From positions 1 through 38,734 of the forward strand of contig JAFROT010000033.1 in assembly GCA_017429525.1 (NCBI GenBank): 38,734 nt of DNA. Direction: 5' to 3'. Position 1 is the first letter of the stretch, and every line of letters starts with the position of its first letter. The stretch is from Bacteroidaceae bacterium. Lineage in GTDB: Bacteria; Bacteroidota; Bacteroidia; Bacteroidales; Bacteroidaceae. Made by a program: the position numbers and the translations under genes. Below the pieces are notes generated by a model that saw only the letters and a list, made by a program, of their open reading frames with translations, made no database searches and was not told where the DNA came from. Of this stretch, positions 3,073 to 27,483 are shown in pieces.

Positions 3073-4107
3073 CTATAGGCGCATGCCCACGAAGAAGCGG
3101 GCTCGCCACTTGTTCTGGTTGATGACGAGGATGTCGTCGGCGAAGGCCGAGTTGTTCATCACGAGGGTGGCTCCGGCAAAGTAGCGGGGCGAGAAGTTGT
3201 AGACAATGGCCGCGCGCTCGTTGAACATCATGTTCAGGTGGACGCGATGAGCCTTCTGCCTCTCGCCGTCGATGGTCAGGTTGTTGCTGTTGATGACGAC
3301 GAACGTGGGCAGCACGGACAGGTGGAGAAGCCACCTACGCCCTGGCACCCAGTTGAAACCATAGCCGCCGCCGATGCCTATGTGCCCGGTGTGAAGGCGC
3401 AGGTCGGATGCCTCAGGCTGCCGCTGCTCCAGCTTGTCGGTGGTCTCGATGCTCCCGCCCTGATAGCTGAAGCCTGCCAGCCATGAACCGGCCGAACGCC
3501 GTTGCAGATAGCTCTGGGTGAAGGCGGCCGCGTAGGAGAAATGGCGGTGGTTGAAGATGTAGTAGCCAGCGATGTTCATCACCTTCATCTTCGCGTCGCC
3601 TGCCTCCAGCCGCCATTTGTCCAAGTCGCTCGTGATGTCGCCCACCAACGATTCGGAGCGCTGGTAGCTGAAGTCCAGGCTCACGCGGCTGCCGAAGTAG
3701 TTCGCGTTGAGCTCATAGTCCTTGTAGGCGCCGCTTATCTTGGCGGGATTGACGGCCAGGGCGAGCGTGAGCCCCCTGAAGGAGGCGGCCAAGCTGATGG
3801 TGGTCTTGTGCTTAGTGCTGAAGTCCGCCTTCTCCTGGATCCCGTTCTCCTTACTCTTCGCGTGGAGGGTGTTGCCCGTCTGGTTGAGCCTCAGCTTCAG
3901 CGTCAGCGTACCTACGGGGCGCACGACATAATAGGTGTCGTAGGGCGTGCGGTAGTAGCGGGCGGTCAGCATGCTGTCTACCTGCTGGCCTCGCTTGCGC
4001 ATGCCTGCCGGCACGATGGAGCGGAGCTTCTCGGCAAATGTCTGCGCCGAGGCTTCGGCGAGGAAGCCGCAGAGCAGGCATAGCACGATGACGGCTTTTG
4101 TTCTCAT
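3073..4107 (-). CDS. DUF4421-like secreted/outer membrane protein
   Basis: 344-residue protein with a clear signal peptide ([22 protein letters not shown]). It resembles the Bacteroidota DUF4421 family in overall appearance: an early block [15 protein letters not shown], then many alternating amphipathic strands (for example [20 protein letters not shown]) and a final strand [11 protein letters not shown] ending in an aromatic-hydrophobic-Arg-Leu pattern. That pattern suggests an outer-membrane beta barrel. The function of the family is unknown. It precedes rnhB, probably in one transcript. A consensus promoter lies about 200 bases upstream (4305-4340), with a small decayed reading frame in between. 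Confidence 0.7.
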
Positions 4108-4340: not shown

Positions 4341-4616
4341 TTGTGCATTTTTTACCCTTTTGACAACAAAAAGTCGGTTCATCACGCTATCACCCATCCG
4401 AACGGGAGGCAGCAGCGCGCCCCCCCGCTCAGCCATGCCGTCCGCGGCCGCACAACACATCTTTGCCATTATTTTGGAACTTTTTGGAGGCAAAAGAAGC
4501 GAAACAGCATCCATAGAACGTCTGATTTTCATTCAGTAAATGATAAGAAAAAAACAAAGGGCTCACAGTGGATTAGTGCATTTCCGAAACTTCAGTATAT
4601 CATCACCATTGCTTTT

Positions 4617-4730
4617 CGGTTTTCCAACCGGTTGGAAAACTGATTATATATAGGTGCTAACGGTTTTCCAACTGGTTGGAAAACTGAATTCATATAGAGC
4701 TTAACAGCTTTGCCACTGGTGGCAAAGCTG
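4617..4730. repeat. Array of three palindromes with exact 44-bp period
   Basis: Three 22-bp palindromes begin at 4619, 4663 and 4707, exactly 44 bp apart. Left arms are GTTTTCCAAC, GTTTTCCAAC and GCTTTGCCAC. Right arms are GTTGGAAAAC, GTTGGAAAAC and GTGGCAAAGC. The third copy differs from the others at three arm positions, and each change is matched in the opposite arm, so pairing is kept. Spacers between palindromes are also similar (TGATT..ATATAG..GCTAAC and TGAATTCATATAG..CTTAAC). The third copy extends to a 12-bp perfect arm (4705-4716 with 4719-4730). Confidence 0.9.
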
Positions 4731-4746
4731 AATATGTACGGTGGGA

Positions 4747-4812
4747 TGTTCGCAGGTGACTTGTCAGTTGTTCGCAGGGGACGTCTGAGTTGTTCGCGAG
4801 TGTCGTAGAGTG
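4747..4812. repeat. 22-bp tandem repeat, three copies
   Basis: TGTTCGC recurs at 4747, 4769 and 4791, exactly 22 bp apart. The first two units agree over most of their length (TGTTCGCAGG, then GAC, then GAGT or CAGT), and the third is more diverged. It begins 16 bases after the palindrome array and ends just before the stop codon of the isomerase gene. Confidence 0.75.
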
Positions 4813-4828
4813 TAGCGTTCTGATGGGT

Positions 4829-5806
4829 TTAGCGCGCCCATGCCTCGAGGAGGCGCACTTCGGTGGCGTCGGGTGAGGTAATGGTGAAGTCGGCCTGCGA
4901 AGCGGGGATGAGGCATGAGAAGCCTTTGTGGAGGGTGACGCTGTTGTCCTCGTGGTCTGTGATGATGGCTGTGCCCTGGAGGCAGGAGAGGGTGACGAAG
5001 CTGTCCTCCTGGAGCAGGGGGCGACGGAGGCTTGTGCTGGTGGTGAGGACGTTGACGACGAAGTAGGGACAGTCGACAACGCAGGTGGCGCCTTCGGCGG
5101 GGGCTGTGTAGTGGGTGCGATAGTCGGGGTAGACGCGGAAATCGATGGCGTCGCGTGCCTCGAGGGTGTGGAGTTGGCGGGGCTTGCCGTCGAGTCCGAG
5201 GCGGTGGTAGTCGAAGAGGCGGTAGGTGATATCGGAGCTCTGCTGGATCTCGCATACCATAATGCCGCCGCAGATGGCGTGAACCCGTCCGGCAGGGATG
5301 AAGAAGACGTCGCCAGCATGCACCTCGTGGCGGGCGAGGACGTCGACGATGGAGCCGTCGTCAACTCGGCGGGCATAGTCGTCCTTGGAAATCTCCTGAC
5401 TGAAGCCTACGAGCATGGAGGCGCCGGGGTCGGCCTGCATGACGTACCACATCTCGGTCTTGCCAAGGGAGCCGTGGCGCTCGCGGGCGAGTTCGTCGTT
5501 GGGATGCACTTGGATGGAGAGGTCCTGTGCTGCATCGATGAATTTGACGAGCAGGGGTAGCTGGGCTCCGTAGCGCTCCATGATGTGGTCGCCGAGGAGT
5601 ACGGCGCCGTATTCGCTGATGAGGCTGTGGATGCTGCGTCCGGTGAGGCGTCCGTTGCGCACATGCGACTCGCTGGAGGGCACGTCGCTGATTTCCCAGC
5701 TCTCGCCAATGGGTTGCTGGTTGGGAGCGAGCCCTTTGAGGGCCCTGAGCTTGTGGCCGCCCCATACGAGTTCGTGGAGGTTTGCTTGGAAGAGAAGTGG
5801 ATACAT
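4829..5806 (-). CDS. manA: Type I mannose-6-phosphate isomerase (cupin)
   Basis: 325-residue cytoplasmic zinc enzyme interconverting mannose 6-phosphate and fructose 6-phosphate, linking mannose use and GDP-mannose synthesis to glycolysis. Zinc ligands are visible as Q99 and H101 in SIQVHPNDELA, E118 in GKTEMWYVM and H176 in PAGRVHAICGG. The N-terminal block LVWGGHKLRALKG and GESWEISD are typical. The length fits the short bacterial form of the family. The ATG at 5806 gives the expected N-terminus MYPLLFQANLHELVWGG. A promoter-like TAACTTTG lies just upstream. It is the last gene of the minus-strand run, and its 3' side ends in two repeat arrays. Paralogues in this family can act in other sugar pathways, so the symbol is by family. 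Confidence 0.9.
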   Translation of the reverse strand: MYPLLFQANLHELVWGGHKLRALKGLAPNQQPIGESWEISDVPSSESHVRNGRLTGRSIHSLISEYGAVLLGDHIMERYGAQLPLLVKFIDAAQDLSIQVHPNDELARERHGSLGKTEMWYVMQADPGASMLVGFSQEISKDDYARRVDDGSIVDVLARHEVHAGDVFFIPAGRVHAICGGIMVCEIQQSSDITYRLFDYHRLGLDGKPRQLHTLEARDAIDFRVYPDYRTHYTAPAEGATCVVDCPYFVVNVLTTSTSLRRPLLQEDSFVTLSCLQGTAIITDHEDNSVTLHKGFSCLIPASQADFTITSPDATEVRLLEAWAR

Positions 5807-27395: not shown

Positions 27396-27483
27396 CCTCA
27401 CGCGTATATACGTGTAGCCTCACGCGTATATTCGTGAAGCCTCACACGTATATTCGTGTAGCCTTATGCGTATAATAACGAGC
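27396..27483. repeat. 22-bp tandem repeat, four copies
   Basis: Units begin at 27396, 27418, 27440 and 27462, exactly 22 bp apart. The first three differ at only a few positions from CCTCACGCGTATATTCGTG plus a TAG or AAG end. The fourth is diverged (CCTTATGCGTATAATAACG). Each unit contains an imperfect palindrome (CACG, GTATAT, CGTG). Confidence 0.85.

Follow-up and report, generated by a model that had tools for sequence, protein, structure and literature searches.

Three phased palindromes near a Bacteroidaceae manA gene are probably a stray solo copy of the DNA-site array of a small mobile element

The three palindromes lying just beyond the mannose-6-phosphate isomerase gene in the window (by which we mean the whole stretch of 38,734 nucleotides analysed, a contig of a Bacteroidaceae genome) belong with a small mobile element and not with manA: they are a stray solo copy of its DNA-site array. 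We think it probable that this array is a cis-acting site of the element and is read by proteins of the family DUF6078. The relevant part of the window holds the following features:

3073..4107, minus strand: DUF4421 gene (PF14391), a neighbour outside the element
4619..4640: palindrome 1, type A, GTTTTCCAAC-CG-GTTGGAAAAC, read from the sequence
4641..4662: spacer unit of 22 bp, ATTnCATATAGGnGCTAA-like, related by alignment to the spacers of other copies
4663..4684: palindrome 2, type A, GTTTTCCAAC-TG-GTTGGAAAAC, read from the sequence
4685..4706: spacer unit of 22 bp, from the sequence and the 22-bp tiling
4707..4728: palindrome 3, type B, GCTTTGCCAC-TG-GTGGCAAAGC, read from the sequence
4747..4797: minisatellite of 22 bp, TGTTCGCAGG..., 2.3 copies, from TRF and the 22-bp tiling
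4829..5806, minus strand: mannose-6-phosphate isomerase gene (type I; PF20511, PF21621), a neighbour outside the element

Re-reading the sequence and running a repeat search placed the palindromes where the first-pass annotation had them, at 4619, 4663 and 4707 with start spacings of 44 and 44 bp; its description of palindrome 3, which differs at arm positions 2, 6 and 8 with 3 of 3 differences mirrored in the opposite arm, proved accurate, and Pfam matches put the array next to the 3′ end of manA, ~100 bp past the stop of the isomerase gene. The duplication of 44-bp units that it proposed is supported by a 44-bp direct repeat, recovered alongside the inverted repeats of the array, and by a TRF row of period 44 (2.7 copies, score 136). 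The basic unit, however, is 22 bp and not 44: the minisatellite at 4747–4797 keeps the register of the palindromes (4615 + 6 × 22 = 4747), and a 22-bp tiling runs from 4615 to beyond 4790, with palindrome and spacer three times and then the different minisatellite. In the window array, palindromes of a single family are spaced at multiples of 22 bp, in a register that extends to 4797.

A BLAST search with this region found many matching places across the window's own genome. The pattern TTTTCCANNNNNNTGGAAAAC, with up to two mismatches allowed, has 39 matches there against 3 for a reversed control pattern, and this genome-wide recurrence places the window array far above chance. The matches define 19 loci, and at 19 of 19 a pair of GTTTTCCA-N6-TGGAAAAC palindromes is spaced by 44 bp; of these 38 palindromes, 37 are exact at the pattern's 15 fixed letters and the other has one mismatch. 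One additional match, with two mismatches, stands alone outside the 19 loci. The copies adjoin differing open reading frames. Counting this genome, 4 of the 101 genomes of the genus that were searched contain an array match, most of the genomes surveyed being draft assemblies. We aligned 22 copies without gaps, 19 from the genome itself and 3 from relatives, excluding L054 and L058, whose sites are altered; the outer arm is nearly invariant, the centre and spacer vary, and the distance between the 26-mers is 18 bp in 22 of 22.

One of these loci, L052 on contig C5 of the same genome, is an apparently complete element of ~3.1 kb, in which the palindrome pair lies between two genes. Its order is end repeat, DUF6078 gene (145 aa; PF19555, E 9.8e-31), palindrome pair, primase-helicase gene (705 aa, with a BT4734-like N-terminal domain (BT4734_N), a VapE-like domain and DUF3874) and end repeat. 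BT4734-like proteins are described as a family of archaeo-eukaryotic primases, and VirE domains as predicted helicases of mobile elements (PMC5862659). A DUF6078 gene thus adjoins at L052 the same array that, in the window, has no DUF6078 gene beside it. The end repeats are imperfect, inverted and ~110 bp long by alignment, and were missed by BLAST of one flank against the other; the left end is defined by the alignment, the end-search test of the copies having shown the right end only.

The copies in this genome share longer modules beyond the palindromes. At least one element end is retained in 13 of the 19 (L052 and twelve others) and none in 6, the window copy among them, at which a search for terminal inverted repeats, the criterion for a MITE, found no end. 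All 13 end-bearing copies carry the array, with the caveat that copies were found by the array; a search of the genome with the end repeats gave few end matches away from arrays. In a relative (G076), L054 and L057 retain pieces of both genes flanking the array and L055 retains a piece of DUF6078; no protein-level remnant of either gene was found at the 18 other copies in the window's genome. Together, the copy ends and the gene pieces indicate that shortened copies keep the array, direct internal deletions being seen only in G076. BLAST detected long inverted repeats at L064, L065, L066 and L148 and one of 28 bp at L154, and none at L052, L063, L159, L170 and L172. Inspection by eye of L064, L065, L066 and L148 revealed no target-site duplication, so the argument for mobility is made from copy number, shared ends and shortened copies. 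L068 (contig C18 of the same genome), the counterpart of the element site in G041, retains part of one end repeat and, after it, a 22-bp tandem repeat of another sequence, and therefore does not represent a clean empty site. Separately, GACACGTCAACTGGTAGCCGGC-like 22-bp tandem repeats follow the palindromes inside two shortened copies, at ~5140–5310 of L053 and ~2060–2220 of L056.

If the array belongs to the element, relatives of the element should carry an array in the same place, and this was tested. Between the DUF6078 and VapE genes, L063 has GTTTTGCC...GGCAAAAC at 44 bp, L064 and L065 have GTCCCA-N4-TGGGAC at 22 bp, and L066, in the window's own genome, has GTCTCA-N4-TGAGAC at 22 bp; at L062 (with the sites of L063) and L067 (own genome, with the sites of L066) the array follows DUF6078 with no adjoining VapE gene. 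In the window's taxonomic family, 114 of 251 genomes sampled carry DUF6078. To these seven genes examined first (L052 and L062–L067) we added 80 fetched from among ~150 matches listed, spread over the listing and weighted to higher scores, for a sample of 87 in which the L159 protein is identical to that of L063. Two or more palindromes with identical 6-bp arms lie near the stop codon (−70 to +300) in 40 of the 87, or 33 of 80 without the first seven; the same was seen in 1 of 1740 shuffles and in 3 of 255 control windows lying further downstream. Pairs lie 22 bp apart in 24 loci, 44 in 29 and 66 in 6; a distance of 42 bp was seen in 4 loci, and each of eleven further distances in a single locus; the control distances, in 510 windows, are 45, 60, 64 and 68 only, with none at 22, 44 or 66.

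By a looser measure, 22-bp periodicity or a palindrome pair at 22, 44 or 66 bp, with a threshold chosen after the lag-22 autocorrelation results had been seen, a 22-bp array lies beside 66 of the 87 genes, 59 of 80 without the first seven and 42 of 57 clusters (65% protein identity); of 594 control windows, examined for periodicity only, 0 pass. The other 21 of 87 have no 22-bp array by this measure, and include L101 and L151, with 23- and 21-bp arrays in the identical-arm test. The array is downstream in 59 cases and upstream in 9, 2 genes having both; eight of the upstream genes fall within one clade of ten (support 99 in a quick tree), and the ninth, L122, which has arrays on both sides, lies elsewhere in that tree. 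To address a phage origin of the family, a reading that we did not retain, we ran tblastn, which located DUF6078 in 4 plasmid records and in 5 faecal phage records that are unannotated. A 22-bp array follows the gene in both Parabacteroides distasonis records, one of them with an adjoining BT4734/BF3469 gene, and in 4 of the 5 phage records, with none in MT836291; the array in Treponema saccharophilum is weak, and Bacteroides finegoldii has related half-sites, seen by eye only. The occurrence of 22-bp arrays beside most sampled DUF6078 genes suggests that DUF6078 reads them.

The 22-bp pitch also shows when no palindrome is asked for. Among the 57 cluster representatives the autocorrelation excess downstream of the gene is 0.129 at lag 22 (z 9.2), while no lag exceeds 0.022 in the controls and, upstream, lag 22 is outside the eight highest. 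In 80 DUF6078 loci (429,711 bases), TRF placed 44 period-22 rows downstream of the gene; of the 8 rows that fall elsewhere, 7 are just upstream of DUF6078 genes. This concentration, together with the recurrence of palindromic arms with new sequence in different families, makes it quite improbable that the arrays are passive minisatellites, repeats of 22 bp made by slippage and palindromic by chance, with the DUF6078 gene as a bystander, even though 22-bp repeats without a DUF6078 gene do exist (4747 and 27396 in the window; L204; L068).

The first-pass annotation had pictured three stacked hairpins in the 3′ untranslated RNA of manA. We set this aside: the array is dispersed through the genome, its covariation is that of shuffles, and the predicted minus-strand RNA, which does fold strongly (−51.7 kcal/mol, z −7.6, 0 of 200 shuffles as low), pairs palindrome 1 with palindrome 2 and does not form three hairpins. 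Nor was an intrinsic terminator of manA found on the minus strand, the sole terminator-like site in 4500–4900 being on the plus strand, and the window has 0 Rfam matches at the gathering threshold. Across the 22 aligned copies most outer arm pairs are without variation; pairing is lost in 13 of 44 cells at the innermost position, and in 30 of 44 at the second position counted from the outside. Copies and shuffles have equal covariation scores (0.037 and 0.037), and the sole measure of five to exceed shuffles is the number of further pair types (9 against a shuffled mean of 7.0, reached by 23 of 500). The array family looks like conservation of sequence more than of pairing. Uncompensated changes in the arms, which the annotation had named as an observation that would speak against it, occur at the inner pair and in the third palindrome. 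Selection on a symmetric site, as the annotation proposed, holds up, and among an RNA hairpin, a DNA hairpin and a symmetric protein site it is the protein site that is favoured.

More generally, arrays might form stem-loops in transcripts, as terminators, as protection of 3′ ends or as structures through which DUF6078 binds its own mRNA. The strong fold, the terminator-like match, the one pairing measure and the position of most arrays 3′ of the DUF6078 gene, many of them less than 100 bp from the stop, would fit such a role; against it, an RNA function would not obviously call for a pitch of 22, 44 or 66 bp in sequences that are unrelated, copies in the window's genome adjoin differing reading frames, and, among 127 successive opposite half-sites, 61 are separated by 10 or 12 bp, roughly one turn of the helix, although the search favoured short loops. 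The array also lies upstream of the gene in one clade. We regard RNA hairpins as improbable: spacings that keep to multiples of 22 bp while the sequence is free, and a clade with upstream arrays, point to double-stranded DNA and away from RNA.

The array's tie is to DUF6078 and not to the primase-helicase. A VapE gene is present in 10 of the 80 fetched DUF6078 stretches and 70 show none; 5 of these 10 lack an array by the looser measure, including L170 and L172, where VapE directly follows DUF6078, and an origin role for VapE therefore cannot be general. We rejected a tie of the array to VapE itself: 27 of the 30 BT4734_N loci tested, out of many more matches listed, have no DUF6078 gene in the stretch, and three of these 27 (L198, L199 and L204) reach the array threshold, 0.56 at lag 22, in a test of the upstream side. 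At L204 (at ~46.9 kb on contig C42 of the window's genome), a BT4734_N gene with no DUF6078 nearby, the upstream 22-bp repeat is CATAGGTTCATCGGCTTACGAA in ~7 copies. At L112 and L114 (G177 and G160), DUF6078 and the BT4734_N/VapE gene are adjacent but divergent, in contrast to their shared orientation in L052.

The arms differ between families while the 22-bp pitch stays: 33 loci have 29 distinct 6-mers, or ~20 sites when shifted readings and close relatives are combined by eye. A second family in the window's own genome, GTCTCA-N4-TGAGAC, comprises 19 exact palindromes in 9 loci (control 0), 2 of the 9 beside DUF6078 genes; L069, L219, L220 and L223 share long flanks and L222 parts of them, and L221 and L224 have the array alone in common. 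Similarly, GTGCCA-N4-TGGCAC has 9 palindromes in G096, whose DUF6078 gene at L147 has that array, and 0–2 in nine other genomes of the genus; three are at the gene, three in a second 22-bp array and three single, and the single ones may be chance. Palindrome 3 has 10 of 11 complementary pairs in the window against 1 to 8 at the same position in the 18 other copies, so that among the 19 copies of this genome it is intact in the window only. Its arms are similar to the GTTTTGCCA sites that adjoin L062 and L063, two sister DUF6078 genes, and it looks like a site of that sister specificity, in which case its three compensated changes would record an old change of specificity and not local selection on a hairpin.

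Sites read by DUF6078, or by another regulator, might instead form an operator array that controls transcription of neighbouring genes with no role in mobility. The array lies between two co-oriented genes in L052, L063–L066, L148, L154 and L159, a promoter-like match occurs within the array of the window (2 such matches, with 0.5 in shuffles), and the 70 of 80 DUF6078 stretches without a VapE gene are in keeping with such a function. Yet the array is mostly downstream of DUF6078 and not at its promoter, it is present in all 13 end-keeping copies of the window's genome (again, found via the array), and few end matches lie away from arrays; we consider an operator role rather unlikely.

The preferred reading, of a mobile-element site array read by DUF6078, is built on what was observed: the copy number, the exact spacing, the parent locus, the shortened copies that keep the array and the tie of DUF6078 to arrays of diverse sequence. 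From these patterns we infer that DUF6078 binds the arrays. In this reading a symmetric dimer, most likely of DUF6078, would bind each palindrome as double-stranded DNA. DUF6078 has four invariant cysteines that may bind zinc; comparing its profile with solved structures yielded no credible match, and sequence searches gave no structurally characterised relative. The 22-bp pitch, about two helical turns, would set successive dimers on one face of the helix, with the counterpoint that tandem slippage could keep the unit length without helical phasing. The array would act in cis, as an iteron-like origin or assembly site during replication or movement of the element, and solo arrays, the window's included, would be left behind in intergenic DNA, where they may still titrate the protein. 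Its adjacency to a primase-helicase gene (L052, L063–L066; 10 of 80 stretches) makes the array a candidate iteron-type replication origin, and in elements with that gene it may serve as origin or assembly site by analogy with pRN1; for stand-alone DUF6078 genes, autoregulation or a selfish relation between gene and site is possible.

We put forward more tentatively, as a possibility that we lean against, that DUF6078 and its array constitute a new selfish gene–site module of Bacteroidales and some other gut bacteria: an undescribed DNA-binding family in which every member has a palindrome of its own at a fixed 22-bp pitch, the pitch being conserved and the sequence re-specified time and again. 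Its sites would have spread in the host genome in the form of shortened elements and solo arrays, and certain lineages would have gained a primase-helicase to give a replicating element without a recognised transposase or integrase.

In the openly licensed papers searched on Prevotella and Bacteroidales palindromic repeats, REP/RAYT in Bacteroidetes, VapE elements, iterons with a primase-helicase and minisatellites we found no description of this array, and in the openly licensed papers searched no mention of DUF6078; the first-pass annotation's statement that no described family matches is borne out within what was searched. Four known systems are comparable in part. Iteron arrays, located at plasmid and satellite origins next to a replication gene, consist of short repeats spaced by about two turns of the helix, mostly direct and non-palindromic, which the replication initiator binds. 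The arrays here share this spacing of short repeats, with a replication gene adjoining in some loci; unlike iterons, they are palindromic and lie beside DUF6078 even where there is no replication gene.

The BrickBuilt MITE of Porphyromonas gingivalis, with 19 intergenic copies in one strain, is also a Bacteroidales element with leader and tail ends, an internal short tandem array and some copies lacking ends (PMC4596501). Its repeat, however, is of 23 nt and in its published account not described as palindromic, its ends are CCGAAAGGTCTC-like and its 12-bp inverted repeats resemble those of known insertion sequences, whereas here the units are palindromic and of 22 or 44 bp and the ends are ~110 bp and AATCAATCACT-like; that account reports no parent gene for BrickBuilt (PMC4596501), whereas here the parent locus has DUF6078 and a primase-helicase. 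The archaeal plasmid pRN1 has a minimal replicon of ~3.1 kb with a small repressor gene, a primase-helicase gene and a symmetric DNA element that is essential for replication and is poorly conserved in sequence, its shape being conserved (PMC4234260). The element described here resembles it in size, in the pairing of a small gene with a primase-helicase gene and in its symmetric DNA. The pRN1 element is a single 100-nt stem-loop downstream of the primase gene (PMC4234260); here, by contrast, there are phased palindromes tied to DUF6078 in chromosomal elements, and the origin function is putative.

REP/BIME sequences with their RAYT genes share with these arrays a dispersed, intergenic distribution of palindromes in small groups, some beside the gene of one family (PMC3733652, PMC6006769), and a corresponding reading would have single-stranded palindromes processed by a transposase and spread genome-wide. 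That reading is very improbable here. DUF6078 matches PF19555 only, not the Y1 transposase family, and the genome's three Y1_Tnp matches (one barely over the curated cut-off) are at no array locus of either family. The arrays are head-to-tail at 22 bp and low in copy, whereas REP dimers are described as mostly inverted (PMC3733652), and the window has no GTAG or CGTC tag at the stem foot: its stems are preceded by TTCG, AACG and AACA, and in many other copies a CGTC occurs 14 bp before the outer stem, not at its foot.

If DUF6078 reads these arrays, a family of no known function gains a testable job, with a likely cognate site that can be read from the DNA adjoining many of its genes, and dispersed palindromes that otherwise resemble unexplained RNA hairpins gain an explanation. 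With one 22-bp geometry and differing recognition sequences, such paralogues would amount to a natural experiment on the specificity of protein–DNA recognition. The small primase-helicase element is also of interest in its own right, having end repeats and no recognised transposase.

Two minor features of the window are worth recording. At 27396–27474 there is a second 22-bp tandem array, CCTCACGCGTATATWCGTGTAG × 3.6, half-palindromic (CACG...CGTG) and unlike the arrays of the three DUF6078 genes found in the window's own genome. At 4617–4642, and in the sister copies, CGG...CTG or CAG...CCG stands just beyond the stem as two reciprocal states; this asymmetric mismatch, without a standard pair in 30 of 44 cells, could mark polarity.
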